Assembly (NCBI RefSeq): GCF_020379485.1
Contig: NC_063450.1
Location: forward strand, 49,752,681-49,816,680
Length of the DNA: 64,000 nucleotides
Source of the DNA: Brassica napus
Lineage: Eukaryota; Streptophyta; Magnoliopsida; Brassicales; Brassicaceae
Direction: 5' to 3'
The notes beneath the pieces are model-generated. The model was not told the DNA's origin. It did no database searches and was given only the letters and a program-made list of their open reading frames with translations. Shown piece by piece: positions 46,649-64,000 of this stretch. The translations under genes and the position numbers were made by a program. Positions within the stretch are counted from its first letter, which is position 1; every line of letters starts with the position of its first letter.

Positions 46649-49600
46649 ATGACCTCTAGCACGACAGGGGATCGAAGGTTTTTATTCTCTTCTTTTTACT
46701 TTGTCTTTGTCATGCATTTTTCTATGTTGTTTTTTTTTTGGAGGGTAAAAACAGAGTGGATTTTTTTCCCCTTTCAATCGCTTTGCTTCTTTTCGTAGTG
46801 CCTGCGTGATATCACTTTGATTTGGCCTTGATTGATTTTCGTATATGATCTATTCCAACTACTGTTAAAATAAAATCACTATATGTGAAAACTCTGTGTC
46901 TGGCTTTTTCTTTCCTTCAAAGAGCTTGCTCGTCTCGTCTCGTCTCGTCTCGTCTCGTCTCGCGTCATTGCTTTCAAGCTTTGATACCAAATTGCTTTTT
47001 TTTTGGATAAATTCGCAGATGGGGTACTACAAGAAGAAGTGGCATGACTATATTGGGAAAGGTTGCTGTTCCGAAACCGATTAATTTACCAAGCCAAAGG
47101 TATTTGATGAGCGCATGATCATATTTAGTCTTAATATATATATATATATATGTTATTTCGTTCCTGAATACTTCTCTTCTGAATTCAAGGCTAGAGAATC
47201 AAGGCCTTGACCCGAATGTGGAAATTGTTCCAAAGTAAGTTTGTACCTTTTTTCAGATGCTATTTCTCATTCTTATCTGTAGTCAAATTTTAGACATTTC
47301 AGTTTTCTTCTCGGCATCTATTGTAGGGGAACCCTTAGTTGGGGAAGTAAATCACCACTTAATGCGTGGGGGACATCATCACTGTCACCACGAACTGAAA
47401 GTGGCCCTGGTTCACCAAGCCACCTTAGTAATCGCCCTTCTTCTGGTGGAAGTGTCACTCGACCTTCAACTGCGGACAGTGACAAAGCGCATGATTCTTC
47501 TTCTACTGCATGGGATTCAAACTCCCGGCCTTCATCAGCATCCGGAGTGTTTCCATCTAATCAGGCATCAGTTGCTCTACAACGTCCACATAGTGCAGAC
47601 ACAAGACCTGGAAGTTCCCACTTATCACGATTTGCTGAAGCCGTGTCAGAGACTTCTGCAACATGGGGTCAACATGTATGGTTCTTCCCTTTAAAAATCG
47701 TGTCTATTATTCATCTGACTCTGCGAAGCATCAGCTTAATCTTTTTTTTTTGTATCCTTACATCTGTTGAGCGCCATATTTGTGGGACAGGGAATGGTAT
47801 TGGTAGTAACTTTTCTGGACTAATGATCGATATCCAATCTGATTGGAATTATAACTGCTGGATATATCCTTCGTGTTTGCTGTGGAAACACAAAATAGGA
47901 TGCTGAATTTGTCAAATTTAGGTCACTTATTCGTTCTCCTAGAGAAATTGTTTGTAGTGCGTAAGATGATCTGGAAACCTGGTGGCGCATCTTCTGGTTG
48001 GTAAATTGGAATTTGATGGAAGTGTTTTCATGATTATTTTGAAAATTTCCATGCCATCAAGTAATTTTTTTGTAGGATAACTTTGTACACTTTACCTAAC
48101 TTTGCATAGTCTGCACGGAAATTTATCTTCACTCCTCAAGATTTCTCACCATTTATTACAGGGCGATGCTCCAGCAAAAAAGGATGGGTTTTCTTTGACT
48201 TCTGGAGATTTTCCTTCTCTTGGTACTGAAAAAGAAAGTACTGAAAAGAGCGCAATGCCACAAGGTATCATCTGTAAACAGTAGAAAATGTGGCACTAAA
48301 AAATATAATAATACAATCAGCAGTTTCTATGTAAAGGAGGAGAAAATAAATGTTTCAGTTTGTACCGAATTCTATCTCATACTCGCCGTTTTTGCGGTCT
48401 AGAGAGTGACGTTAGCAAACACAGGTTCATTTTGCAATAAAGTTAAAACCTGTAGAGACTGGGTTTTCTGGCTTGCTGTTTGTTGAACACTCTTATGATC
48501 TTATATGACCTCTTAGTACGTGCCCCTCGAGGGTTTTAGAATTACCTAGATATAATGTGATCTGATTTTAGGGAGTGAATACGTTAGATATTGCTCTTAG
48601 AAACTACGATTTTGCAGATGCTGGACCTGGAACTCGTCCTGCATCTTCGTCTGGAAGATCTGCGGAAGAGCGAGGTGTGGATTGCACACAAGGTTCTTAT
48701 TTTCAATGATTGGCATTTCATTTCTATAGTTACTTTTGTTCCAATGATTTCTTCTTACTTCTTTATTCCCCTTACCTATTTTTAGTGAATGTTCTCTTGG
48801 GAACTTTGTCTGACCATATCTTGATTTCTATATGCAGAAGCTAATGTACGGATTGGAGATGACAGTGCCTGGAGAAGAGATAATCAACCATACAGTGAAA
48901 ATGAATCTAGATATTGTAGAGAGGAAGGGCAATTGGACTCCCGTGGTTTACAACCTTATCCCAATGCGAATTTCCCTCATCAATATGATGCTTGGCGAGG
49001 TCCTCCAGTAAATAATCATCAAGGTGGAAGCTGGTACAGAGGGAACCAACCTTATGGTCCCCCATTGGGTCCTGGGAGATTTCATGTGGATCCTTTTCCG
49101 TTTTATCCTACGCAAGTTCCACCTGTTCCTGGACATGAGGCTGGTCCTCGGGGTAATCACGCTATTAATGAAAAGATGTTCAGGCCTCCAATCCTTGACC
49201 CTTATGTCCACCCAAGACCTGGGTTTTATCATGGTCCAGTGCCACGTGATGGCTACTATGGTCCTCCCATGGGGTACGGCGGTCCTAACAATAGAGATCT
49301 GCCTTTTGCAGGGAGGCCTGCTGGTCCTCATGCTTATCACCAGCACCCTGGCCAAGGTAGATATGATACGTCTGCAAGTTCAGTGGCTTTGGAACGGAAT
49401 GAGCCATCACATTCTCAAGAAAGACAATACAAGATTCTCTTAAAGCCCCAAGATGGGAGGTTAAAGGAAGATGAAGCAAAGCGGGAAGAATTTCTAGGAA
49501 ATAGGCCCTCGACTGCAGAGAAAGTAGCTCCACACATGCAAACTTCAAAAAACAACAGGAGAGTAAACAACAATGAGACAAGTGGTGAGGTACAACCAAT

Positions 49601-52472
49601 TACGGTAGAAAATGCTGCCCGCGAAGATCCCAGTTTGATTCAGAAAATAGAGGGCTTAAATGCAAAAACTACATTCAATTCTGGGACCTCTGCAAATAAA
49701 GTTTCAACAAGAATGCCTCGAAGTGGTCATGCAAGTGATAGTCAGAACTCATTACCCTATAAACAAGTTGATCCTGCCACCAACAAAAGCGCCGAGCTGG
49801 CAGCTATTAGTGGAACTACCATATCCAGGTCTGTTATTATTTTGTCACTAACGTTTTGGCAGGTTATGCTATCCTTCGTTCGGAAAATGTTGATGTTAGT
49901 ACCTACAGGAGATCTACTCAACAGACTCAAGGTGGAGCTGATCATCAGGCCAAACAAAGAGTGAACAGCGGAGGCAATGATGGTTGGCGGAAGACAGCTG
50001 TTATGTCAGGCTCCTCTGCTGTAACTTTAGCTCCAAACCCAGAAAGATTTGCTGAGATAAATGTAGGTGACTCGCTGGACACCGATTCCATCGGGAAGAC
50101 TGGGTCTGGAATATCTGTGGAGCCAAACGACAACCAGGTATAAACTAGTTCATGTGATTGTATTGTTGGTTGCCATCCTTTTGTGGTTATACTGAGTGTT
50201 TGACATGTTCTCTTAAAAGCGTACTACAATGAGAGAGTTAGCCAGGCAGCGTGCTCAACAGAGGCAAAAAGAGGAGGAAGAAAGAGCAAGAGATCAGCGG
50301 GCTAAGGCTCTTGCTAAACTAGAAGAATTGAACAGACGTTCCCAACTTGCTGGGGATGGTTCAGTCAAGAACTTGGAAGCTGCGCACAATGCTTCTACCC
50401 CTGACATGCCAGAAGTTCCTCTGTCACATTCACCTGCATCACGGGAGAAGAAGACCACTGTTACAGCTGAAGATTCTATAGAAGTCACTGTAGATTCAGG
50501 AAAAACGTTACTGCCTTCACCAGAAGATGCAAATAATGAAGGCTCTACTCAACATGATAACCCTCCACGTCACCATGATGGCGCTGCCTCAAAACAGAAA
50601 CGCTTGGGTTATAAGCAGAAGCAAAATATCGTATTTGAGAAAAAAATGGCGGGGAGCTCTTTCTCTGAAGCTACCACAGAGGTGGTTGATGTTGTTCCAC
50701 CTCCTGAGGTGTCAAACGAAGGTGTTCTAGGTCATAACTCAGTCATGCCAGCAGCGTCAAGCGTTTCAACTGAGTCAACTAACACGAAAAGAAAAAATAA
50801 CAGGAATGGTAAGAAAAAGCACAGGGCTGAGGAGACGACAGTAATGAACCCGACAAGAGCTACCGTTGGAAAAGATTCAAAATCCGGAGATGAGTCAACT
50901 GAGATAGGTAGGGAAAGGGGAGCAGAAATGGAGTTTGGGTCTCTTTCAGTCCCAAGCTTGGATATTAAAGTGTCTGGTAATTCGTCTGACCAAATCAGTT
51001 CCTTCACGAATGAAGAGTCGCAAAGCAGAGTAAAACACAACTGGAAATCTCAGCACTTGCGTAGGAATCCAAGAAACTCAGTGGCAAATAAGCCTGCAGA
51101 GAAATTTGCTGGTAGCAGTACTGTTATTTGGGCCCCGGTACATCCACAGCAGAAAGCTGATATCTCCACAGATGCAGACAGTCAGAAAACAGTTCCTGAG
51201 TTTAGCACCTCTTCGAAGAGTCTGCATCAAGTTCAGACTAGTTCTAAAAGCAAAAGAGTGGAGATGGAGAGATATGTAGCAAAGCCCATAGTAAAGGAAA
51301 TGGCTGAGCAAAGCGTCATTAAGAATCCAATAACGACTGCCCCAGAAATGACAGAAAATGTTCTGCAAAAAGAAAACTGTGGGGGTGAAGGTACAGGAAT
51401 TCTCCAACCTTCTGGTTTAACTGCGGGGAAATCGGGGTCTCCTTCAAAGTCAAGACATGGGAATGGTAGGCAGGGCAAGCATGGTAGAGATCATGGATCA
51501 TCGCACCAGCGAGGTTCTGTAGCTTCTACCAAAGCTTTGGAGGATGGACAATTCCGTGGAACAATGAACTATCACAGAAATAACCAAACTGAACAAATTG
51601 CTGTAGGCTCTTCTAAGGATCACACCACATCTAATACTGATGGATGGAACGATGGCTGGTATATGCCTCCTGAAACGCATTCCTCTGCGGCTGAAGAAGT
51701 AGAAGCAAATGGTCCTGGAACCGTTGCTGTTGGAAAAGATCAGGGAATGAGCATTCACTGTAAGCAGCATGCTTCCAGAAGCTACAAGGATGGAGGAAGT
51801 AACTATAGCGACCCTAGAAAAGCGAATAAGAGGGATCCCAGTAAAGCTCATATGCAGCAGTCTGGACATGGGGTAGGTCAAGAAGATCTTCCTGTTGCTT
51901 CCAAAGAAAGTCGTGGCCCTGAGGATCATGTGTCGCACACAGCTGTTAACTCTAATGTTAATAGGGGAGGTAACCATGGTGGTCGTGAATACACGAGAGA
52001 CAAAATTTATGTATCTCAGAAAAGGGATGTTGCTGGATACGGACAGAAAATGACATCAGCTGATACACCAGCCCAGTCCCAAAACCGATCTACCAGTAAG
52101 GAGGTCCAGGGTGAGCATCATCCGAACAGCATGTTCCAAAAGAACACAGACCATAGTCAACGGTTTGGAAGAGGGCATCATGACTCGCAAGGAGGTTGGG
52201 GTTCATCGGCGCAAGAGAATATGCACCACCATCACCATCAGAGGCCAGCTTCAAACGGAGATAGACAGAAGCAGAATCTGCATTACGAATACAAGCCTGT
52301 TGGTTCACATACGCATGATGGAGAACAACAATTTAAAGACGGATCTCAGGCAGAAGGTCCACCAAGATACAGGGAGAAGGGACAGGGCCAGCAAAGGCAT
52401 GGTGGACACCAACAGCAAAGGGGTAGTGCTGGGAGAAACACCGGTCATGGATTAACAGATGAGAGAAACTAA
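46649..52472 (+). CDS. MOS1: MOS1, BAT2-domain regulator of SNC1
   Basis: Modifier of snc1, 1: a large nuclear protein needed for expression of the immune receptor gene SNC1 in Arabidopsis. Nine exons: 46649-46677, 47019-47099, 47190-47234, 47327-47675, 48162-48264, 48618-48692, 48838-49828, 49909-50137, 50220-52472. They total 4155 nt, or 1384 residues, close to the Arabidopsis length. The N-terminal BAT2-type domain (RRSGMTILGKVAVPKPINLP, GLDPNVEIVPKGTLSWGSK) is followed by Pro/Gly/Tyr-rich and then low-complexity charged sequence. A short coiled coil lies at the start of exon 9 (MRELARQRAQQRQKEEEERA) and a His/Gln/Gly-rich tail ends the protein. The exon 8 acceptor at 49908 keeps the frame (ISR-RSTQQTQGG); an upstream acceptor at 49862 would hit a stop. 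Exons 8-9 are duplicated downstream. Confidence 0.93.
46928..46962. repeat. (CTCGT)n microsatellite
   Basis: About seven CTCGT/CTCGC units in MOS1 intron 1. Confidence 0.9.
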
Positions 52473-53055
52473 GATTTGGCCTCTATGTTATTATAGATAG
52501 TAGTAAGAGCTGCGTAGCTGAGGCCTGTTGCATTTTGAGATATGGCCATTGAAGGAAGCTATTATTTTGTAGGGCAGGGGCATAGCCTTTAGGTGCCTGC
52601 CAAAGGAGTCGTCCTCATCTGAGGACGTATTGGCAGATAACAAAGTCTATGCTCGAGGGTGGTTTTATTATGTATGTCGGTCACTTATTTGAATATGCAT
52701 CTCATCAAACTTTAGCCTTTTGGTGTTACATTTGCTGGCAGTTGGACTGACTCTGTTTTGTTAAGCCGTTGCTGGTTGTGTTGTTTGTTTCTCCTTTTGT
52801 TGTCGGAGTATGTGAACCATTTAACATGACCTACTTTTCTTTTGAATTCAATTCCTTTTTTCTTACAAATACTTAATATTCATTAGTTAGAAGAATCCTT
52901 GAGCAGTTAGCAATTCTAAAGTCTCAAAATTATGCAAAGTTGTTTAAATCATTTGTTAGTAATGAGAAATGACTAAATAGTTTCACAAAATTTAGTTGGG
53001 AAAGTATATTAAATATCAAATCATTAAATACCACAATAATTAGATGGGTAAGTTT
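52473..53055. other. MOS1 3' UTR and flank
   Basis: Presumed 3' UTR and downstream sequence, repeated nearly identically at 58544-59126. A palindrome-like GTCCTCATCTGAGGAC lies at about 52609-52624 in this copy. Confidence 0.6.
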
Positions 53056-55170
53056 GGGTCTGGGCGTTCGGTTACCCGTCGGCGTTCAGATCGGGATTTT
53101 CGGATTTTTGATCTTAGGTCCCATACTAAATTTTATTAGTACGGGTTGGGTTCGGATAATAACACTTCGGGTTCGGTTCAAAATTGTATTGCGTCCTAAA
53201 ACCCATAAAGTAATCATATATCGTACGGATTCGGGTTATATCGGTTCGGTTCGGATATAACCGAAGTAAAAAACAAAAATTTTGAAGCAAAAACATAAAG
53301 AAAGCATCTAAATTAAATACAAATTAATCTATCACACGTAAAATTGATAAAATAACAATAAAATGTTAAATTAAGCATGAAAACAAACATCATTTGTAAA
53401 CAATATGTATTCCTTTATAGAGAGTAGATTTTTTATTCAATGAGCAAATTATAAAATACTTATTTATAACTAACTGTGTACTTAAAGCATTTATTAAAAT
53501 TTTAATATTTATTATTATATATCATATTACCACAAATATTGAATTTAATAATTGAAACACTTATAAATATTTCAAAATATTTATATCTAATCTATTAAAA
53601 AAAAAGTACAAAATTAAACTAACCCTTAGACTTGCACAATATTTGCAATAGAATGTCATTGCAGTATTTAATAAACCTAACAATAAATATTCTTTGTCTT
53701 TCATATTTTATTAATGCATTTTCAAATTGATTTTTAACTAAAAACATGGCAACAATAATTTAAGCAAATCTAAACAATAAAGAATATCAAAACATGAATC
53801 AGTTGAGACAATTTTTTCACGAAAAAGATGATTAGTTTGTACTTTAATAATCATATCATGGATCAGTTGTAACTTACAATCCAAATTTTAAATATATATT
53901 TATCCTATATTGTAAAACAAAATGACGTAATAATTGAAAAAATCATTTTAACCACACGAGATCAACACATGAACAATAAGAAAACATATACAAACATCGT
54001 CCGTCCATTTGTTCAATGAATATTATATCTTTGTTAAATCCTCCATATATTCAATATAACCAAAATATCTATTTTAATATATCTATATTATTAAAAGTGA
54101 AGTAAATATTAGAAATATATTTTTTTCATTCTAATAACTACATGTTCTACCTAATTAATAACTATTAATTGACAACAAATCATTTATTTTGTTAGATTTT
54201 TCGCTATCCAAACTTCAAACTTAATTGATTAACTACAAATCATTTATTTTGTTAAATTCTTTTCTAACCAAATGTACGAAACTTACGATTATTTTCTAAC
54301 CGGATTATTCTGTAACCAAATTTTACAATAAAACTAAACAAATTTATTTAAAATGTATTTACAAACTTTAAATGTTATAGATATATTCATATATATCATT
54401 ATTTTATTTCACATGCAAAATATAAACTATAGATATTTTTATTAAAATATATAAAGTTATTTTTAAAATATATATTAAATAATTTGATGATTAATACAAT
54501 TCACACGTATAAATTTGAATTATAAGAATACAACAAATAAATTTCAATTTAATATTTTCTCAAAAATGAAAATAAAAGTGAAATTTATTTGGCATATAAA
54601 AAAAATTTAGAGACATGTATATCTATATTATTAAAACATGATAATTTAATTTTAAAAATATAGATTTATTAATATATATAAACATAATAATTGGTACTCT
54701 AATTTAGAAATAAATACATCAAAATGGTTACTATAGTCAAAAATATAAATCGACAAATATATTATATAATATATTTTTTAATTGGTTTTGTATTCTACCA
54801 TAATATGAGAAATCAAAAAATTACACACAACAAAAATAGTCCATTTATCACAATTACAAATCGAATAAATACCCATATGAATGTATGTTTGTACAACTAT
54901 TATATTTTGTATTGTAAAAAATTTATATGTCGATTTTATTAAATTAAACATCCGTGCGGATGCACGGGTCAAACTCTAGTTGACTATTAATTTCAGATTT
55001 TTCGGGTTACTCGTTCGGGTTCATTTAATAATACTTCGGATTCGGATATTTTTTGTACCACCCTACAAGACCCGTTCGGGTATCTTTACATTTCGGATTG
55101 GATAACGGATTGGATTTTTAGGTTCGGGTTCGGTTCGGATTTTGGGTTCCAGATTTTATGCTCAGGCTTA
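53056..55170. mobile_element. MULE-like element, copy 1 (low certainty)
   Basis: Left end GGGTCTGGGCGTTCGG; right end inverted TAAGCCTGAGCAT. Candidate 9-bp duplications GGTAAGTTT (53047-53055) and GGTAAGTCT (55171-55179) differ by one base. Both ends are rich in CGGGTTCGGTTCGG. A Helitron is nested inside. A 9-bp duplication would suit Mutator-like elements, but the inverted repeats are weak. No coding. Confidence 0.4.
54082..54979 (+). mobile_element. Helitron, copy 1 (898 bp)
   Basis: Starts TCTATATTATTAAAAGTG after an A (54081). Ends with hairpin CCGTGCGGATGCACGG and then CTAG (54976-54979), followed by T. The interior is AT-rich and non-coding. Confidence 0.85.
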
Positions 55171-55179
55171 GGTAAGTCT

Positions 55180-55509
55180 ATTAAAAACCACAAAAATTAA
55201 ATTAATGTCGCTTTTATTCTCTCATAAATGTTTTTTCTTAGGGCTTTACTTAGCGTTGTTGGTTTTAGTTGTCTTTCTGGACAAGCCAAATAACCAGACA
55301 AGTCAATATCTTGTTTGATAAGTCGAATTCATTATTAATTAAATCTAAAAATGAATTAAATAATCAGTTAATATATAACATCATCGTCTCGATATAAATA
55401 TCAACGCGACCGTCAATATTATTGTGTTGACGATATAAGCGGACTACGGGTACGCTTCTCAAAGGATAAGTTACCTGTTCATTTGCCGATTCTCTAGCCT
55501 GTGAGAGCG
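55180..55509 (+). promoter_or_regulatory. NBR1-type promoter driving the chimeric gene
   Basis: About 330 bp between the transposon end and the ATG at 55510, nearly identical to 61291-61620 in front of NBR1. It therefore should carry the same start-site signals and 5' UTR. No individual motif is assigned. Confidence 0.55.
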
Positions 55510-58500
55510 ATGGATTCTACTTCTGCACTCGTCGTCAAGGTTTGATTCCTTTCTTTATCCTCTGTTTTAGCTGCGATCGCGTCGATCTTCGTTTCTGTTC
55601 CTCTAGGTTTACTAGATTTGTTGTTTCTTGTAATCTCTCCTTTCGTTTTTTTGAATTTTTCCATGGATCGAATGTGTAACCGCCGGAAAATTGAAGCGGA
55701 GATTCGAATTTACTCTGTTAAGTAGCATAAACCCTAAGAAATATAGTGCTTGAATCGTGATCGTGATCGTGATCGCTCGCGACGCTTGTTTAAAACTTTT
55801 AATTCATTCATGTGAGATGCATCTGTTTGTGATCATCGCAGGTGAGCTACGGAGGTGTGCTTAGGCGCTTCAGGGTGCCTGTGAAAGCTAATGGACAGCT
55901 TGATCTTCATTCGGAAAATGTTGATGTCAGTACCTACAGGAGATCTACTCAACAGACTCAAGGTGGACCTGATCATCAGGCCAAACAAAGAGTGAACAGC
56001 GGAGGCAATGATGGTTGGCGGAAGACAGCTGTTATGTCAGGCTCCTCTGCTGTAACTTTAGCTCCAAACCCAGAAAGATCTCCAAACCCAGAAAGATTTG
56101 CTGAGATAAATGTAGGTGACTCGCTGGACACCGATTCCATCGGGAAGCCTGGGTCTGGAATATCTGTGGAGCCAAACGACAACCAGGTATAAACTAGTTC
56201 ATGTGATTGTAATTGTTGTACTTGTTTCTATTGTTTGTTGCCATCCTTTTGTGGTTATACTGAGTGTTTGACATGTTCTCTTAAAAGCGTACTACAATGA
56301 GAGAGTTAGCCAGGCAGCGTACTCAACAGAGGCAAAAAGAGGAGGAAGAAAGAGCAAGAGATCAGCGGGCTAAGGCTCTTGCTAAACTAGAAGAATTGAA
56401 CAGACGTTCCCAACTGGCTGGGGAGAGTTCAGTGAAGAACTTGGAAGCTGCGCACAATGCTTCTACCCCTGACATGCCAGAAGTTCCTCTGTCACATTCA
56501 CCTGCATCACGGGAGAAGAAGACCACTGTTACAGCTGAAGATTCTATAGAAGTCACTGAAGAGTCAAGAAAAACGTTACTGCCTTCACCAGAAGATGCAA
56601 ATAATGAAGGCTCTACTCAACATGATAACCCTCCACGTCACCATGATGGCGCTGCCTCAAAACAGAAACGCTTGGGTTATAAGCAGAAGCAAAATATCGT
56701 ATTTGAGAAAAAAATGGCGGGGAGCTCTTTCTCTGAAGCTACCACAGAGGTAGTTGATGTTGTTCCACCTCCTGAGGTGTCAAACGAAGGTGTTCTAGGT
56801 CATAACTCAGTCATGCCAGCAGCGTCAAGCGTTTCAACTGAGTCAACTAACACGAAAAGAAAAAATAACAGGAATGGTAATAAGAAAAAGCACAGGGTTG
56901 AGGAGACGACAGCAATGAACCCGACAAGAGCTACCGTTGTAAAAGATTCAAAATCCGGAGATGAGTCAACTGAGATAGGTAGGGAAAGGGCACCAGAAAT
57001 GGAGTTTGGGTCTCTTTCAGTCCCAAGCTTGGATATTAAAGTGTCTGGTAATTCGTCTGACCAAATAAGTTCCTTCACGAATGAAGAGTCGCAAAGCAGA
57101 GTAAAACACAACTGGAAATCTCAGCACTTGCGTAGGAATCCAAGAAACTCAGTGGCAAATAAGCCTGCAGAGAAATTTGCTGGTAGCAGTACTGTTATTT
57201 GGGCCCCGGTACATCCACAGCAGAAAGCTGATATCTCCACAGATGCAGACAGTCAGAAAACAGTTCCTGAGTTTAGCACCTCTTCGAAGAGTCTGCATCA
57301 AGTTCAGACTAGTTCTAAAAGCAAAAGAGTGGAGATGGAGAGATATGTAGCAAAGCCCATAGTAAAGGAAATGGCTGAGCAAAGCGTCAGTAAGAATCCA
57401 ATAACGACTGCCCCAGAAATGACAGAAAATGTTCTGCAGAAAGAAAATTGTGGGGGTGAAGGTACAGGAATTCTCCAACCTTCTGTTTCAACTGCGGGGA
57501 AATCTGGGTCTCCTTCAAAGTCAAGACATGGGAATGGTAGGCAGGGCAAGCATGGTAGAGATCATGGATCTCCGCACCAGCGAGGTTCTGTAGCTTCTAC
57601 TAAAGCTTTGGAGGATGGACAATTCCGAGGAACAGTGAACTATCACAGAAATAACCAAACTGAACAAATTGCTGTAGGCTCTTCTAAGGATCACACCACA
57701 TGTAAATCTGATGGATGGAACGATGGCTGGTATGTGCCTCCTGAAACGCATTCCTCTGCGGCTGAAGAAGTAGAAGCAAATGGTCCTGGAACCGTTGCTG
57801 TTGGAAAAGATCAGGGAATGAGCATTCACGGTAAGCAGCATGCTTCCAGAAGCTACAAGGATGGAGGAAGTAACTATAGCGACCCTAGAAAAGCGAATAA
57901 GAGGGATCCCAGTAAAGCTCATATGCAGCAGTCTGGACATGGAGTAGGTCAACAAGATCTTCCTGTTGCTTCCAAAGAAAGTCGTGGCCCTGAGGATCAT
58001 GTGTCGCACACAGCTGTTAACTCTAATGTTAATAGGGGAGGTAACCATGGTGGTCGTGAATACACGAGAGACAAAACTTATGTATCTCAGAAAAGGGATG
58101 TTGCTGGATACGGACAGAAAATGACATCAGCTGATACACCAGCCCAGTCCCAAAACCGATCTACCAGTAAGGAGGTCCAGGGTGAGCATCATCCGAACAG
58201 CATGTTCCAAAAGAACACAGACCATAGTCAACGGTTTGGAAGAGGGCATCATGACTCGCAAGGAGGTTGGGGTTCATCGGCGCAAGAGAATATGCACCAC
58301 CATCACCATCAGAGGCCAGCTTCAAACAGAGATAGACAGAAGCAGAATCTGCATTACGAATACAAGCCTGTTGGTTCACATACGCATGATGGAGAACAAC
58401 AATTTAAAGACGGATCTCAGGCAGAAGGTCCACCAAGATACAGGGAGAAGGGACAGGGCCAGCAAAGGCATGGTGGACACCAACAGCAAAGGGGTAGTGC

Positions 58501-58543
58501 TGGGAGAAACACCGGTCATGGATTAACAGATGAGAGAAACTAA
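55510..58543 (+). CDS. Chimeric NBR1-MOS1 fusion gene
   Basis: Exons 55510-55539 (MDSTSALVVK), 55842-56186 and 56288-58543 total 2631 nt, or 876 residues, in one frame. The first 32 residues come from NBR1 (VSYGGVLRRFRVPVKANGQ, the basic first half of its PB1 domain). At 55906 exon 2 passes into MOS1 sequence. Twenty-nine bases that are intron in MOS1 are now coding (SENVDVSTYR). The rest is MOS1 exons 8-9, with about 17-20 substitutions from the parent across 748 residues. It lacks the MOS1 BAT2 domain and the acidic half of PB1, plus ZZ, FW and UBA of NBR1. An 18-bp in-frame tandem duplication (SPNPER) lies near 56080. The frame has stayed open, suggesting either youth or constraint. Function is unknown. 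Confidence 0.8.
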
Positions 58544-59126
58544 GATTTGGCCTCTATGTTATTATAGATAGTAGTAAGAGCTGCGTAGCTGAGGCCTGTT
58601 GCATTTTGAGATATGGCCATTGAAGGAAGCTATTATTTTGTAGGGCAGGGGCATAGCCTTTAGGTGCCTGCCAAAGGAGGAGTCCTCATCTGAGGACGTA
58701 TTGGCAGATAACAAAGTCTATGCTCGAGGGTGGTTTTATTATGTATGTCAGTCACTTATTTGAATATGCATCTCATCAAACTTTAGCCTTTTGGTGTTAC
58801 ATTTGCTGGCAGTTGGACTGACTCTGTTTTGTTAAGCCGTTGCTGGTTGTGTTGTTTGTTTCTCCTTTTGTTGTCGGAGTATGTGAACCATTTAACATGA
58901 CCTACTTTTCTTTTGAATTCAATTCCTTTTTTCTTACAAATACTTAATATTTATTAGTTAGAAGAATCCTTGAGCAGTTAGCAATTCTAAAGTCTCAAAA
59001 TTATGCAAAGTTGTTTAAATCATTTGTTAGTAATGAGAAATGACTAAATAGTTTCACAAAATTTAGTTGGGAAAGTATATTAAATATCAAATCATTAAAT
59101 ACCACACTAATTAGATGGGTAAGTTT

Positions 59127-61281
59127 GGACCTGGGCGTTCGGTTACCCGTTGGCGTTCAGATCGGGATTTTTGGATTTTTGCTCTTAGGCCCCATACTAG
59201 AATTTTATTAGTACGGGTTTAAGTTCGGATAATAACACTTCGGATTCGGTTCAAAATTGTATTGCGTCCTAAAACCCATAAAATAATCATATATCGTACG
59301 GATTCGGGTTATATCGGTTCGGTTCGGATATAACCGAAGTAAAAAACAAAAATTTTGAAGCAAAAACATAAAGAAAAACATCTAAATTAAATACAAATTA
59401 ATCTAACACACGTAAAATTGATAAAATAACAATAAAATGTTAAATTAAGCATGATAACAAACATCATTTGTAAACAATATAATATGTATTGCCTTATAGA
59501 GAGTAGACTTTTTATTTCAATGAGCAAATTATAAAATACTTATTTATAACTAACTGTGTACTTAAAGCATTTATTAAAAATTTAATATTTATTATTATAT
59601 ATAATATTACCACAAATATTGAATTTAATAATTGAAACACTTATATATATTTTAAAATATTTATATATAATCTATTAAAAAAGTACAAAATTAAACTAAC
59701 CGTTAGACTTGCACAATATTTACAATAGAATGCCATTGCAATATTTAATAAACCTAACAATAAATATTCTTTGTCTTTTCTGTTTTATTTATGCATTTTC
59801 AAATTGATTTTTAACTAAAAACATGACAACAATAATTTAAGCAAATCTAAACAATAAGGAATATCAAAACATGAATCAGTTGAGACATTTTTTTTCACGA
59901 AAAAGATGATTAGTTTGTACTTTAATAATCATATCATGAATCAGTTGTAACTTACAATCCAATTTTTAAATATATATTTATACTATAGTGTAAAAAAATG
60001 ACGTAATAAGTGAAAAAATCATTTTAACCACACGAGATCAACACATGAACAATAAGAAAACATATACAAACATCGTCCATTTGTTCAATGAATATTATAT
60101 CTTTGTTACGCCCTCCATGTATTCAATATAACCAAAATATATATTTTCTTTTTTGTCATGAACAATACAGACTCATATCTATTTTAATATATATATATTA
60201 TTAAAAGTGAAGTAAGTATTAGAAATATTTTTTTTTCATTCTAATAACTACATGTGCTACCTAATTAATAACTATTAATTGACAACAAATCATTTATTTT
60301 GTTAGATTTTTCGCTATCCAAACTTCAAACTTAATTGATTAACTACAACTCATTTATTTTGTTAAATTCTTTTCTAACGAAACGTACGAAACTTACGATT
60401 ATTTTCTAACCGGATTATTCTATAACCAAATTTTACAATAAAACTAAAAAAAATTATTTAAAATGTATCTACAAACTTTAAATGTTATAGATATATTCAT
60501 ATATATCATTATTTTATTTCACATGCAAAATATAAACTATAGATATTTTTATTAAAATATATAAAGTTATTTTTAAAATATATATTAAATAGTTTGATGA
60601 TTAATACAATTCACACGTATAAATTTTAATTATAAGAATACAACAAATAAATTTCAATTTAATATTTTCTCAAAAATGAAAATAAAAGTGAAATTTATTT
60701 GGCATATAAAAAAAAATTTAGAGACATATATATCTATGTTATTAAAACATGATACATTTAATTTTGAAAATATAGATTTATTAATATATATAAACATAAT
60801 AATTGGTACTCTAATTTAGAAATAAATACGTCAAAATGGTTAATATAGTCAAAAATATAAATCGACAAATATATTATATAATATATTTTTAATTGGTTTT
60901 GTATTCTACCACAATATGAGAAATCAAAAAATTACACACAACAAAAATAGTCCATTTATCACAATTACAAATCGAATAAATACCCATATGAATGTATGTT
61001 TGTACAACTATTATATTTTGTATTGTAAAAAATTTATATGTCTATTTTATTAAATTAAACATCCGTGCGGATGCACGGGTCAAACTCTAGTTGACTATTA
61101 ATTTCAGATTTTTCGGGTTACTCGTTCGGGTTCATTTAATAATACTTCGGATTCAGATATTTTTTGTACCACCCTACAAGACCCGTTCGGGTATCTTTAC
61201 ATTTCGGATTGGATAACGGATTGGATTTTTCGGTTCGGGTTCGGTTCGGATTTTGGGTTCCAGATTTTATGCTCAGGCTTA
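59127..61281. mobile_element. MULE-like element, copy 2 (low certainty)
   Basis: Duplicate of the element at 53056-55170, with the same flanking GGTAAGTTT and GGTAAGTCT (59118-59126 and 61282-61290). It was carried along by the segmental duplication, not a separate insertion. Confidence 0.4.
60192..61090 (+). mobile_element. Helitron, copy 2 (end mutated)
   Basis: Same Helitron as 54082-54979, with the hairpin and CTAG at 61087-61090. The terminal TC has become TA (TATATATTATTAAAAGTG). It is a by-product of the duplication. Confidence 0.85.
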
Positions 61282-61290
61282 GGTAAGTCT

Positions 61291-61620
61291 ATTAAAAACC
61301 ACAAAAATTAAATTAATGTCGCTTTTATTCTCTCATAAATGTTTTTTCTCAGGGCTTTACTTAGCGTTGTTGGTTTTAGTTGTCTTTCTGGACAAGCCAA
61401 ATAACCAGACAAGTCAATATCTTGTTTGATAAGTCGAATTCATTATTAATTAAATCTAAAAATGAATTAAATAATCAGTTAATATATAACATCATCGTCT
61501 CGATATAAATATCAACGCGACCGTCAATATTATTGTGTTGACGATATAAGCGGACTACGGGTACGCTTCTCAAAGGATAAGTTACCTGTTCATTTGCCGA
61601 TTCTCTAGCCTGTGAGAGCG
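61291..61620 (+). promoter_or_regulatory. NBR1 promoter region
   Basis: About 330 bp upstream of the NBR1 ATG, almost identical to 55180-55509. It carries the 5' UTR. No further feature is seen. Confidence 0.5.
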
Positions 61621-64000
61621 ATGGATTCTACTTCTGCACTCGTCGTCAAGGTTTGATTCCTTTCTTTATCCTCTGTTTTAGCTGCGATCGCGTCGATCTT
61701 CGTTTCTGTTCCTCTAGGTTTACTAGATTTGTTGTTTCTTGTAATCTCTCCTTTCGTTTTTTTGAATTTTTCCATGGATCGAATGTGTAACCGCCGGAAA
61801 ATTGAAGCGGAGATTCGAATTTACTCTGTTAAGTAGCATAAACCCTAAGAAATATAGTGCTTGAATCGTGATCGTGATCGTGATCGTGATCGCGACGCTT
61901 GTTTAAAACTTTTAATTCATTCATGTGAGATACATCTGTTTGTGATCATCGCAGGTGAGCTACGGAGGTGTGCTTAGGCGATTCAGGGTGCCTGTCAAAG
62001 CTAATGGACAGCTTGATCTTGACATGGCCTCTCTTAGGAGAAAGATCGCTGCTCTGTTTAACCTCCCTCTGGATGATGGTTTCTCTCTGACTTACTCTGA
62101 TGAAGATGGGGATGTGGTGGCTCTAGTTGATGACAACGACCTCTTTGATGTCACGAATCAGCGACTTAAGTTCTTGAAGATCGATGTACAGCTGAACACT
62201 GGTATGACCACTAACTCTATTGCTACGGAGAGAAGTGGGAGGAGTTCATCAGCTTCGGGCATGCCTGATAGCCAAAACCCGGTTGCTATAATCCACAAGG
62301 GTATAAATGATGTTATGATGGCTGTACCTAACCCGATGCGTGATACTATTTCCAAGGTGTATATTGACCTTACTTCTAAGGCGGCATCTTCTAGCCCTGT
62401 GGTTGGTGAGCTGTTTGATTGCATCTCCAAGCTAGGGAAACTCTCGATTAGTCAGGAAGGTACTCCTTGCTCTCCTGTTACTAAGCCTGGTTCTTCAGTT
62501 CCTTCCGCTGGTGAAAAGAACGATATCTCTAAGAAGTCCCAGGCCGGAAAAAAGCCTGCGACTTCTGGTCATGTACCAACCTCAATGGGAGTGGGTGCTA
62601 GTTTCAACGAGTGTCCCTTCAGTGGCGTAAATGGATCCAGTCTAAATCCAATGAACCTCAACAAGTATCCCCTTGGTGTATGTCACTCTAAAAAGGGCAG
62701 CAATGGTGATTACTGGACCTCCTCACTGGGAGTCTTCCATAAGGGCATCCAGTGTGATGGATGTGCAGTTGTTCCAATAACCGGGCCTAGATTTAAGTCT
62801 AAAGTGTAAGGAGTTTTTTTAGTTCCAAGTATAGAAATTACAGACGTCGTAGAATTTATATATGCTTTTGTTTGTTTCTCTGGTGAATATTTTGCAGGAA
62901 AGAAGACTATGATCTTTGCAATAACTGCTTCTCGGTGATGGGTAACGAATGGGACTACACGAGAATGGATGAGCCCGTCTCAGTTCGACATCTACATCCC
63001 TTTGGAGGACAACGTGTCCCAGTATTGCTCTTCTTCTATGTTTGAGAGTCATTTGTTTCTACTCCTCTCTTTCTCTAGTATAGCTTTGTGGAGATCTCAC
63101 CTTACTTTTTTTTTATTATATAGTTTTCAAATCCGTGGTTGGTCCCTGTGCCGCAACCACACCATGGAGGCTCAGATTTCAGGAGTACCTGGACTAAACT
63201 CGACAGTCGCTTTGTGCTTGATGTGAATGTAATTGATGGAACAGTTGTCGCTCCATCTGCTCCATTCACTAAGATTTGGAAAATGAGGAACAATGGATCG
63301 CTGGTGTGGCCGCGTGGCACACAGATATTCTGGATCGGTGGGGACAGATTCAGCAACTCATTTGCAGTTGATTTACAGGTTAGAAAGCTATTTTTTTAGT
63401 TTTGCCACTTCTTTTGCTCGATTCCAACCCTTAGCTTCCACTTAAAAGATCAATTATACCGTTTAAATTACTCATGAGTGGCTTGAGTTAGCTTCTTTGC
63501 ACAAAATGGCAATAGTTTTTATATGTATATAGTTATATATAATACTAGCTGTTTACTGGTCTCAACATCATTGCAGATTCCAGCGGAGGGTGTGCCCATC
63601 AACGGTGAGCTTGATGTGAAAGTTGATTTTGTTGCACCAGAGTTACCTGGTCGATACATTTCTTATTGGATGATGGCGTCCCCTATTGGTGTTAAGTTCG
63701 GGCAACGTGTTTGGGTGTCGATAAATGTACTTACGAGACCTTTGCTGCTCTTTCTTTTCCTTGAATCTTTGTTTATCTTTGTCAAAATGTCTTTGATACC
63801 TTTTTTGTGGTTGGTTGCGTGGTCAGGTTGATGCATCGCTGAAGGGAACTGATGCGAATGAGTTTCATGGATTGAACTTGAACGCCTTTCCTGATGAAAC
63901 ATTTGCACGAGAGTTTACAGGGACCAACGTGAATTATGAGCCAGCTCAAACTGGCAGCTCCAGTGTTAACGGGACATTGAAAGGTGCTGATCTAGAACGA
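61621..64000 (+). CDS. NBR1: NBR1 selective autophagy receptor (3' cut off)
   Basis: Cargo receptor that links ubiquitinated aggregates to ATG8 on autophagosomes. Exons 61621-61650, 61955-62805, 62898-63015, 63124-63378, 63577-63726, and 63827 to the window edge are all in one frame. The PB1 domain (residues about 8-85) has the basic YGGVLRRFRVP and the acidic loop YSDEDGDVVALVDDNDLFD. A ZZ zinc finger follows (CDGC ... DYDLCNNC ... VRHLHPF, split by intron 2). The four-tryptophan FW domain (WKMRNNGSLVWPRGTQIFWIGGDRF, ELPGRYISYW) lies in exons 4-5. The ATG8-interacting motif and UBA domains lie beyond the window. The exon 3 donor (GTCCCA at 63016) is weak but is the junction that keeps the frame (GGQR-FSNPWL). 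Confidence 0.93.

Follow-up and report, generated by a model that had tools for sequence, protein, structure and literature searches.

Self-BLAST of the window, a stretch of 64,000 nucleotides of Brassica napus DNA, revealed one large direct repeat, the copies of which measure 6.0 and 6.1 kb and are 96.5% identical over 6126 aligned columns. A chimeric NBR1–MOS1 gene is located in the middle, with an intact full-length MOS1 gene on its left and an NBR1 gene with an intact frame on its right (Table 1). The exons of the left MOS1 gene were placed by protein alignment and their splice dinucleotides were checked, with the acceptor of exon 4 taken from the sequence. The intergenic part of the repeat includes ∼2.1 kb between MOS1 and NBR1 (53053–55172) that is present in both copies and has no counterpart at the A03-like locus. 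Far upstream, positions 182–932 contain degenerate tandem repeats and a minus-strand frame of 191 residues (217–792) that is rich in lysine, proline, and phenylalanine.

Table 1. Coordinates of the genes, repeat copies, and junction in the window
Feature	Coordinates	Strand	Description	Basis
Left full-length MOS1	46649..52472	+	1384 codons, single terminal stop	Protein alignment and translation
Left MOS1, nine coding exons	46649-46677, 47019-47099, 47190-47234, 47327-47675, 48162-48264, 48618-48692, 48838-49828, 49909-50137, 50220-52472	+		Protein alignment
MOS1 intron with the breakpoint	49829..49908	+	Homology to the chimera from 49874 onward	
Repeat, left copy	49874..55907	+	MOS1 3′ part, intergenic sequence, NBR1 5′ part	Self-BLAST
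MOS1 3′ flank, intergenic sequence, and NBR1 upstream region	52473..55509	+	Upstream of the chimera	
Chimera exon 1, coding part	55510..55539	+	NBR1 exon 1, MDSTSALVVK	
Chimera exon 2	55842..56186	+	Remnant of NBR1 exon 2 as far as 55907, then former MOS1 intron as far as ∼55939, then MOS1 exon 8	
Junction	55905..55907	+	3-base microhomology CTT, common to NBR1 and MOS1	
Repeat, right copy	55905..62020	+		Self-BLAST
Chimera intron 2	56187..56287	+	Equals the MOS1 intron from exon 8 to exon 9	
Chimera exon 3	56288..58543	+	MOS1 last exon and stop	
Right full-length NBR1	61621..64000, past the window to 64549 (extended coordinates)	+	685 codons, frame intact	

Coding frame and predicted product of the chimera

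The three coding exons of the chimera are separated by canonical introns and form a frame of 876 codons plus stop that is open across the join. It comprises 32 NBR1 residues, ten residues of former intron (HSENVDVSTY), and ∼833 C-terminal MOS1 residues. Translation of the exons was thus in agreement with the intact 876-codon NBR1–MOS1 frame that had been proposed in the sequence-only reading. The gene identities were also supported, and the C-terminal part of MOS1 continues the frame that starts in exon 1 of NBR1 and runs into its exon 2, behind the NBR1 5′ region. The same reading had assumed a join of exon to exon, and this was not borne out, as the NBR1 exon meets a MOS1 intron. The MOS1 intron at the breakpoint is spliced out in all six C-genome MOS1 gene models that were inspected (P0001–P0006, from B. 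oleracea, B. napus, and B. carinata). In five of them (P0001 and P0003–P0006) the acceptor is CTACAG/GAG, so that the intron ends at 49908, and in P0002 it is located nine bases upstream (49899). Because the MOS1 sequence up to 49908 is spliced out in the models, the HSENVDVSTY segment of the chimera represents former intron. Retention of intron 2 leads to a stop after 126 codons, and splicing of exon 1 to the original MOS1 acceptors leads to a stop after 20–23 codons. The predicted form with the full exon 2 is therefore the sole long coding form. When joins of nearby NBR1 and MOS1 positions were simulated, 7380 of 22500 (33%) stayed open to the MOS1 stop, so about one join in three near the break would leave the frame open, and the open frame gives no sign of selection. 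At the upstream end and exon 1 of NBR1 (55461–55539) the two repeat copies are identical (0 of 79 sites differ), and differences are few in intron 1 (2 of 302 sites) and in the part of exon 2 that is present in the chimera (2 of 66).

NBR1, which we take to be AT4G24690, is a selective autophagy receptor. The chimera shares with it the upstream region, exon 1, and the first 32 residues, but is devoid of the OPCA acidic residues, ZZ, N_BRCA1_IG (FW), and UBA. With MOS1 (MODIFIER OF SNC1 1, AT4G24680, a member of the BAT2 family) it shares the ∼833 C-terminal residues, including a charged stretch at chimera residues 126–168; it differs in the absence of the BAT2 N-terminal domain, in place of which it has the upstream region and start of NBR1. 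In the Pfam search, the PB1, ZZ, N_BRCA1_IG, and UBA domains were all identified in NBR1 (P0094) and none of them in the chimera, and the BAT2 N-terminal domain (PF07001) was identified in P0006 and not in the chimera. This confirmed the loss of BAT2, ZZ, FW, and UBA that had been read from the sequence. At E ≤ 10 the chimera has no listed Pfam match, in a listing that is incomplete above ∼0.1, where the HMMER filters discard most matches. The related proposal that the chimera keeps the basic half of PB1 holds for the basic residues, as K10 and R18–R19 are found within the 32 NBR1 residues. It does not hold for a domain, as the piece is only 32 residues long and no PB1 match is listed for it at E ≤ 10. 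By position rather than by alignment, these residues are taken to equal K11 and the R19–R20 finger of AtNBR1 that are described in PMC6978347. A PB1 function of the 32-residue piece was rejected, since no Pfam match is listed for it and the acidic half, as described in the same source, is gone. In the MOS1 part, chimera residues 53–185, 394–491, and 806–846 can be aligned with lettuce P0087, and MOS1 stretches align in some distant angiosperms. MOS1 is described in PMC7584024 as acting on SNC1 through TCP factors and interacting with MAD2 and SUF4.

The junction and the related loci

The chimeric locus is almost certainly real. A single copy of the junction 37-mer is present in the 997-Mb genome to which the window belongs, and neither the window nor the adjoining downstream sequence contains any Ns. 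The junction is also found in P0186 (111 aa, two member sequences), which is encoded on a 704-base contig. Residues 2–111 of P0186 are identical to the window frame 55857–56192, and its first residue is a Met read from GTG. This protein was the best of the three returned from 11 scored candidates in a protein search that was limited to residues 1–90 of a 201-residue chimera piece. P0186 runs into the intron stop and the contig is therefore DNA or unspliced RNA; it might come from the same cultivar. As the junction frame is present on this separate contig, an assembly error is unlikely. The alternative is that two haplotypes or reads were wrongly joined during assembly, and the repeat copies do differ (by 1.55% in the last MOS1 exon and 2.55% in the intergenic sequence) and resemble two sequence classes. 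However, the junction is also present on the separate 704-base contig and Ns are absent. In addition, a MOS1 5′ query found no further C07-type 5′ half of MOS1 in the genome (five of five candidates scored; the C07- and A03-like copies matched at 99–100% and the others at 85–86%), even though the assembly retains a redundant contig for the A01-like locus. A query with NBR1 exon 2 (seven of seven candidates scored) found no second NBR1 body on the contig of the chimera, where exon 2 of NBR1 is present once in full and once as the 66-base piece in the chimera. The absence of a second MOS1 5′ half and a second NBR1 body counts against merged haplotypes, because such remnants might be expected from a second haplotype that had been merged by error. 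An assembly artefact was rejected on the grounds of the separate junction contig, the lack of Ns, and the missing second MOS1 5′ half, and we consider it extremely improbable. The redundant contig (G000:C1888, 39 kb) carries an A01-like MOS1 whose 5′ scores equal those of C1 and whose last exon reaches ∼79–80% versus 77%.

No chimera was found as a cluster representative among 110 proteins in one search or among the 120 shown of 164 in another. Scoring in these searches was limited to the candidates with the most words in common, and a chimera might be masked within a 90% cluster. One further protein, P0007 (715 aa, 14 members, on a 5319-base contig), has 5 left-type and 19 right-type residues at 24 diagnostic sites, and one of these residues is a valine that is found in the chimera and is absent from the left MOS1 and from P0001–P0006. 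P0007 may be a recombinant or an assembly mix, and it faintly hints that both copies may exist elsewhere.

Three related loci in the same genome (A03-, A01-, and C01-like; 20–30 kb fetched per locus) each contain one unrearranged MOS1–NBR1 pair and no chimera. MOS1 and NBR1 are thus neighbors at three further loci, and the statement in the sequence-only reading that the chimera connects an autophagy receptor with a regulator of immune receptors is an overstatement. What the chimera retains of NBR1 is the upstream region, the start codon, and 32 residues. Exon 6 of the A03-like NBR1 (G000:C79, ∼26426058–26428450) holds a presumably hAT-like insert of 2393 bases, which has terminal inverted repeats and a target duplication of 8 bases; the insertion site corresponds to 64079–64086 in window-extended coordinates. 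This copy is therefore probably disrupted, and the C07-like NBR1 is open. Another NBR1 fragment gene is B. oleracea LOC106332591, which encodes a truncated NBR1 of 226 residues with PB1 (P0187).

Source of the MOS1 part and substitution patterns

In the present sequences, the MOS1 part of the chimera appears to be nearest to the full-length B. oleracea P0001 and not to the left MOS1. An 18-base duplication (PNPERS) is common to the chimera and P0001 and is absent from the left MOS1 and P0002–P0006, and within the common MOS1 part the chimera has three private residues and P0001 has one. In a tree of the C-terminal half (16 rows), the chimera groups with P0001–P0006 with support values of 100/97, with the inner order unresolved and the left MOS1 outside. 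In the tree of the N-terminal half (15 rows), the left MOS1 groups with A03 and P0006 (96/93), and P0001–P0005 are outside. Both trees omit P0011 and P0012 (2 of the 15 given database proteins), in which no split motif was found. The N half of P0006 is thus left-like and its C half chimera-like, which argues against two clean MOS1 types and leaves room for a later exchange in the last exons of the left copy.

Site patterns relative to A03 (shared by both copies, left-only, and right-only) also differ along the repeat, with 17, 13, and 22 sites in MOS1 49880–51900 and 61, 8, and 3 sites in 51901–53052 together with the NBR1 5′ part. The nominal Fisher p-value of this contrast is 5e-9, for a border that was chosen after viewing the data and with one three-state site omitted. 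Within the ‘old’ MOS1 part, the block 50801–51300 looks recent (10, 3, and 3 sites). The repeat has a mosaic structure, and the fusion cannot be dated from the divergence of its copies (last exon, 1.55%; intergenic sequence, 2.55%). The MOS1 part had been read as a simple recent duplicate of the adjacent MOS1, which is not supported in that form, since the 18-base duplication and other changes are common to the chimera and P0001 and absent from the left copy. That the chimera simply received a recent copy from the left MOS1 is disfavored by this duplication, by the C-half tree, and by the mosaic site pattern, although less strongly in view of P0006.

Between the left and right copies of the last MOS1 exon, dN/dS is 0.61 (24 nonsynonymous and 11 synonymous changes; p = 0.22 against neutrality). 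Parsimony with A03, which may be an unclean outgroup, places 12 nonsynonymous and 2 synonymous changes on the left branch and 11 and 9 on the right branch, with one nonsynonymous change unassigned. For the right branch p is 0.025, and 9 of its 11 amino-acid changes are also found in the full-length P0001, which is a protein only, so that this comparison covers amino-acid changes. These changes are therefore probably older than the fusion, and the p-value cannot be assigned to the chimera. Comparison of dN/dS with the parent, as the sequence-only reading had proposed, thus says little, and dN/dS was rejected as a test of constraint on the chimera. The left copy's own changes in the last exon are, taken by themselves, consistent with an absence of constraint (test against neutrality, p = 0.75).

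Formation and possible action of the chimera

The reading that we favor, with a probability of about 0.72, is that of a probably young chimeric gene at the MOS1–NBR1 pair, probably of C07 of Brassica napus, that would act, if at all, as a C-terminal fragment of MOS1 under NBR1 control. The repeat copies meet at the fusion point and both outer parents have open frames, as in chimeric genes formed by tandem duplication. We class the locus as a chimeric gene of a tandem segment that arose by duplication or by deletion. End joining through the 3-base microhomology would have linked NBR1 exon 2 to the MOS1 intron, through a tandem duplication between two diverged MOS1–NBR1 segments or through a deletion within a tandem array that already existed. 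The frame would have been kept by a one-in-three chance, with ten codons of MOS1 intron becoming exon. Transcription of the chimera is somewhat more probable than silence, and it would most likely start from the copied NBR1 promoter. If spliced as predicted and translated, the protein would be mostly disordered, judging from its make-up, and its 32 NBR1 residues should form no PB1 domain; no autophagy-receptor activity is expected. Any action would be that of a BAT2-less MOS1 C-terminal fragment that is expressed under NBR1 control and weakly substitutes for MOS1 or competes with it, and a phenotypic role seems improbable.

We give even odds to the possibility that the chimera is a silent or decaying by-product without effect, in which the frame has stayed open simply because the join formed recently. 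The proportion of simulated joins near the break that stay open would fit this explanation, as would the absence of any constraint that can be assigned to the chimera, and the low numbers of private residues in the chimera and P0001 leave little time for decay. However, the promoter-proximal region and the start are nearly unchanged and the stop is located in the last exon, so that there is no obvious silencing. Concerning the route, a deletion inside an older MOS1–NBR1–MOS1–NBR1 array instead of a tandem duplication would produce an identical dot plot, and we place its probability slightly short of one half. The mosaic of site patterns is as in an array with conversion, but the recent-looking block 50801–51300 within the ‘old’ part does not fit, and diverged alleles joined by duplication in a heterozygote would give the same pattern. 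Another possible trace of an array is P0032, a gene model of 951 aa (three members) that consists of NBR1, then a MOS1 stretch, and then NBR1, and that would be a contig-mate of the B. carinata MOS1 P0004. Its MOS1 segment begins after approximately NBR1 residue 276 and, by eye, its end looks frame-shifted. P0032 may be a separate event or a join made in gene prediction, and two complete units were not seen together in any assembly. It is very unlikely that the C-genome MOS1–NBR1 segment is a rearranging array that repeatedly makes NBR1–MOS1 fusions and that the chimera, as a BAT2-less MOS1 with NBR1-controlled expression, alters the balance of growth and defence and contributes to the C07 branch-height association described below.

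The locus is a new case of a well-known and common kind of fusion gene, with a putative function. Chimeric genes from tandem duplications were studied in Drosophila yakuba (PMC5460883), and for Oryza the estimate given in PMC9199173 is up to 63 fusion genes per species per million years. In these chimeras, as described in the two sources, breaks in two neighboring genes likewise unite the promoter and 5′ exons of one with the 3′ exons of the other, and the parents survive. The Brassica chimera differs in that its MOS1 side is nearest to a non-adjacent MOS1 and in that the break is located in an intron. No prior report of an NBR1–MOS1 fusion was found in the open-licence literature that was searched (Brassica, AT4G24680/AT4G24690, the B. 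oleracea pan-genome, and BnaC07G0459400ZS). The precise junction, the open-framed parents alongside it, and the unrearranged related loci that can serve as controls make a gain of expression directly testable.

In a 2025 rapeseed GWAS, the MOS1 copies on A03 and C07 are named for plant height and first-branch height (PMC12155442). According to the same source, the C07 peak for first-branch height lies in MOS1, with SNP positions that differ between its text and its table. The position of the A03 MOS1 is close to that given there, and the C07 positions are not close (49.8 Mb here versus 55.7 Mb for ZS11; PMC12155442). The contig of the chimera carries two copies of the last MOS1 exon with ∼98% identity, so short-read SNP calls in this exon can mix the two copies, and the duplication has practical weight given the GWAS peak in the C07 MOS1 (PMC12155442).
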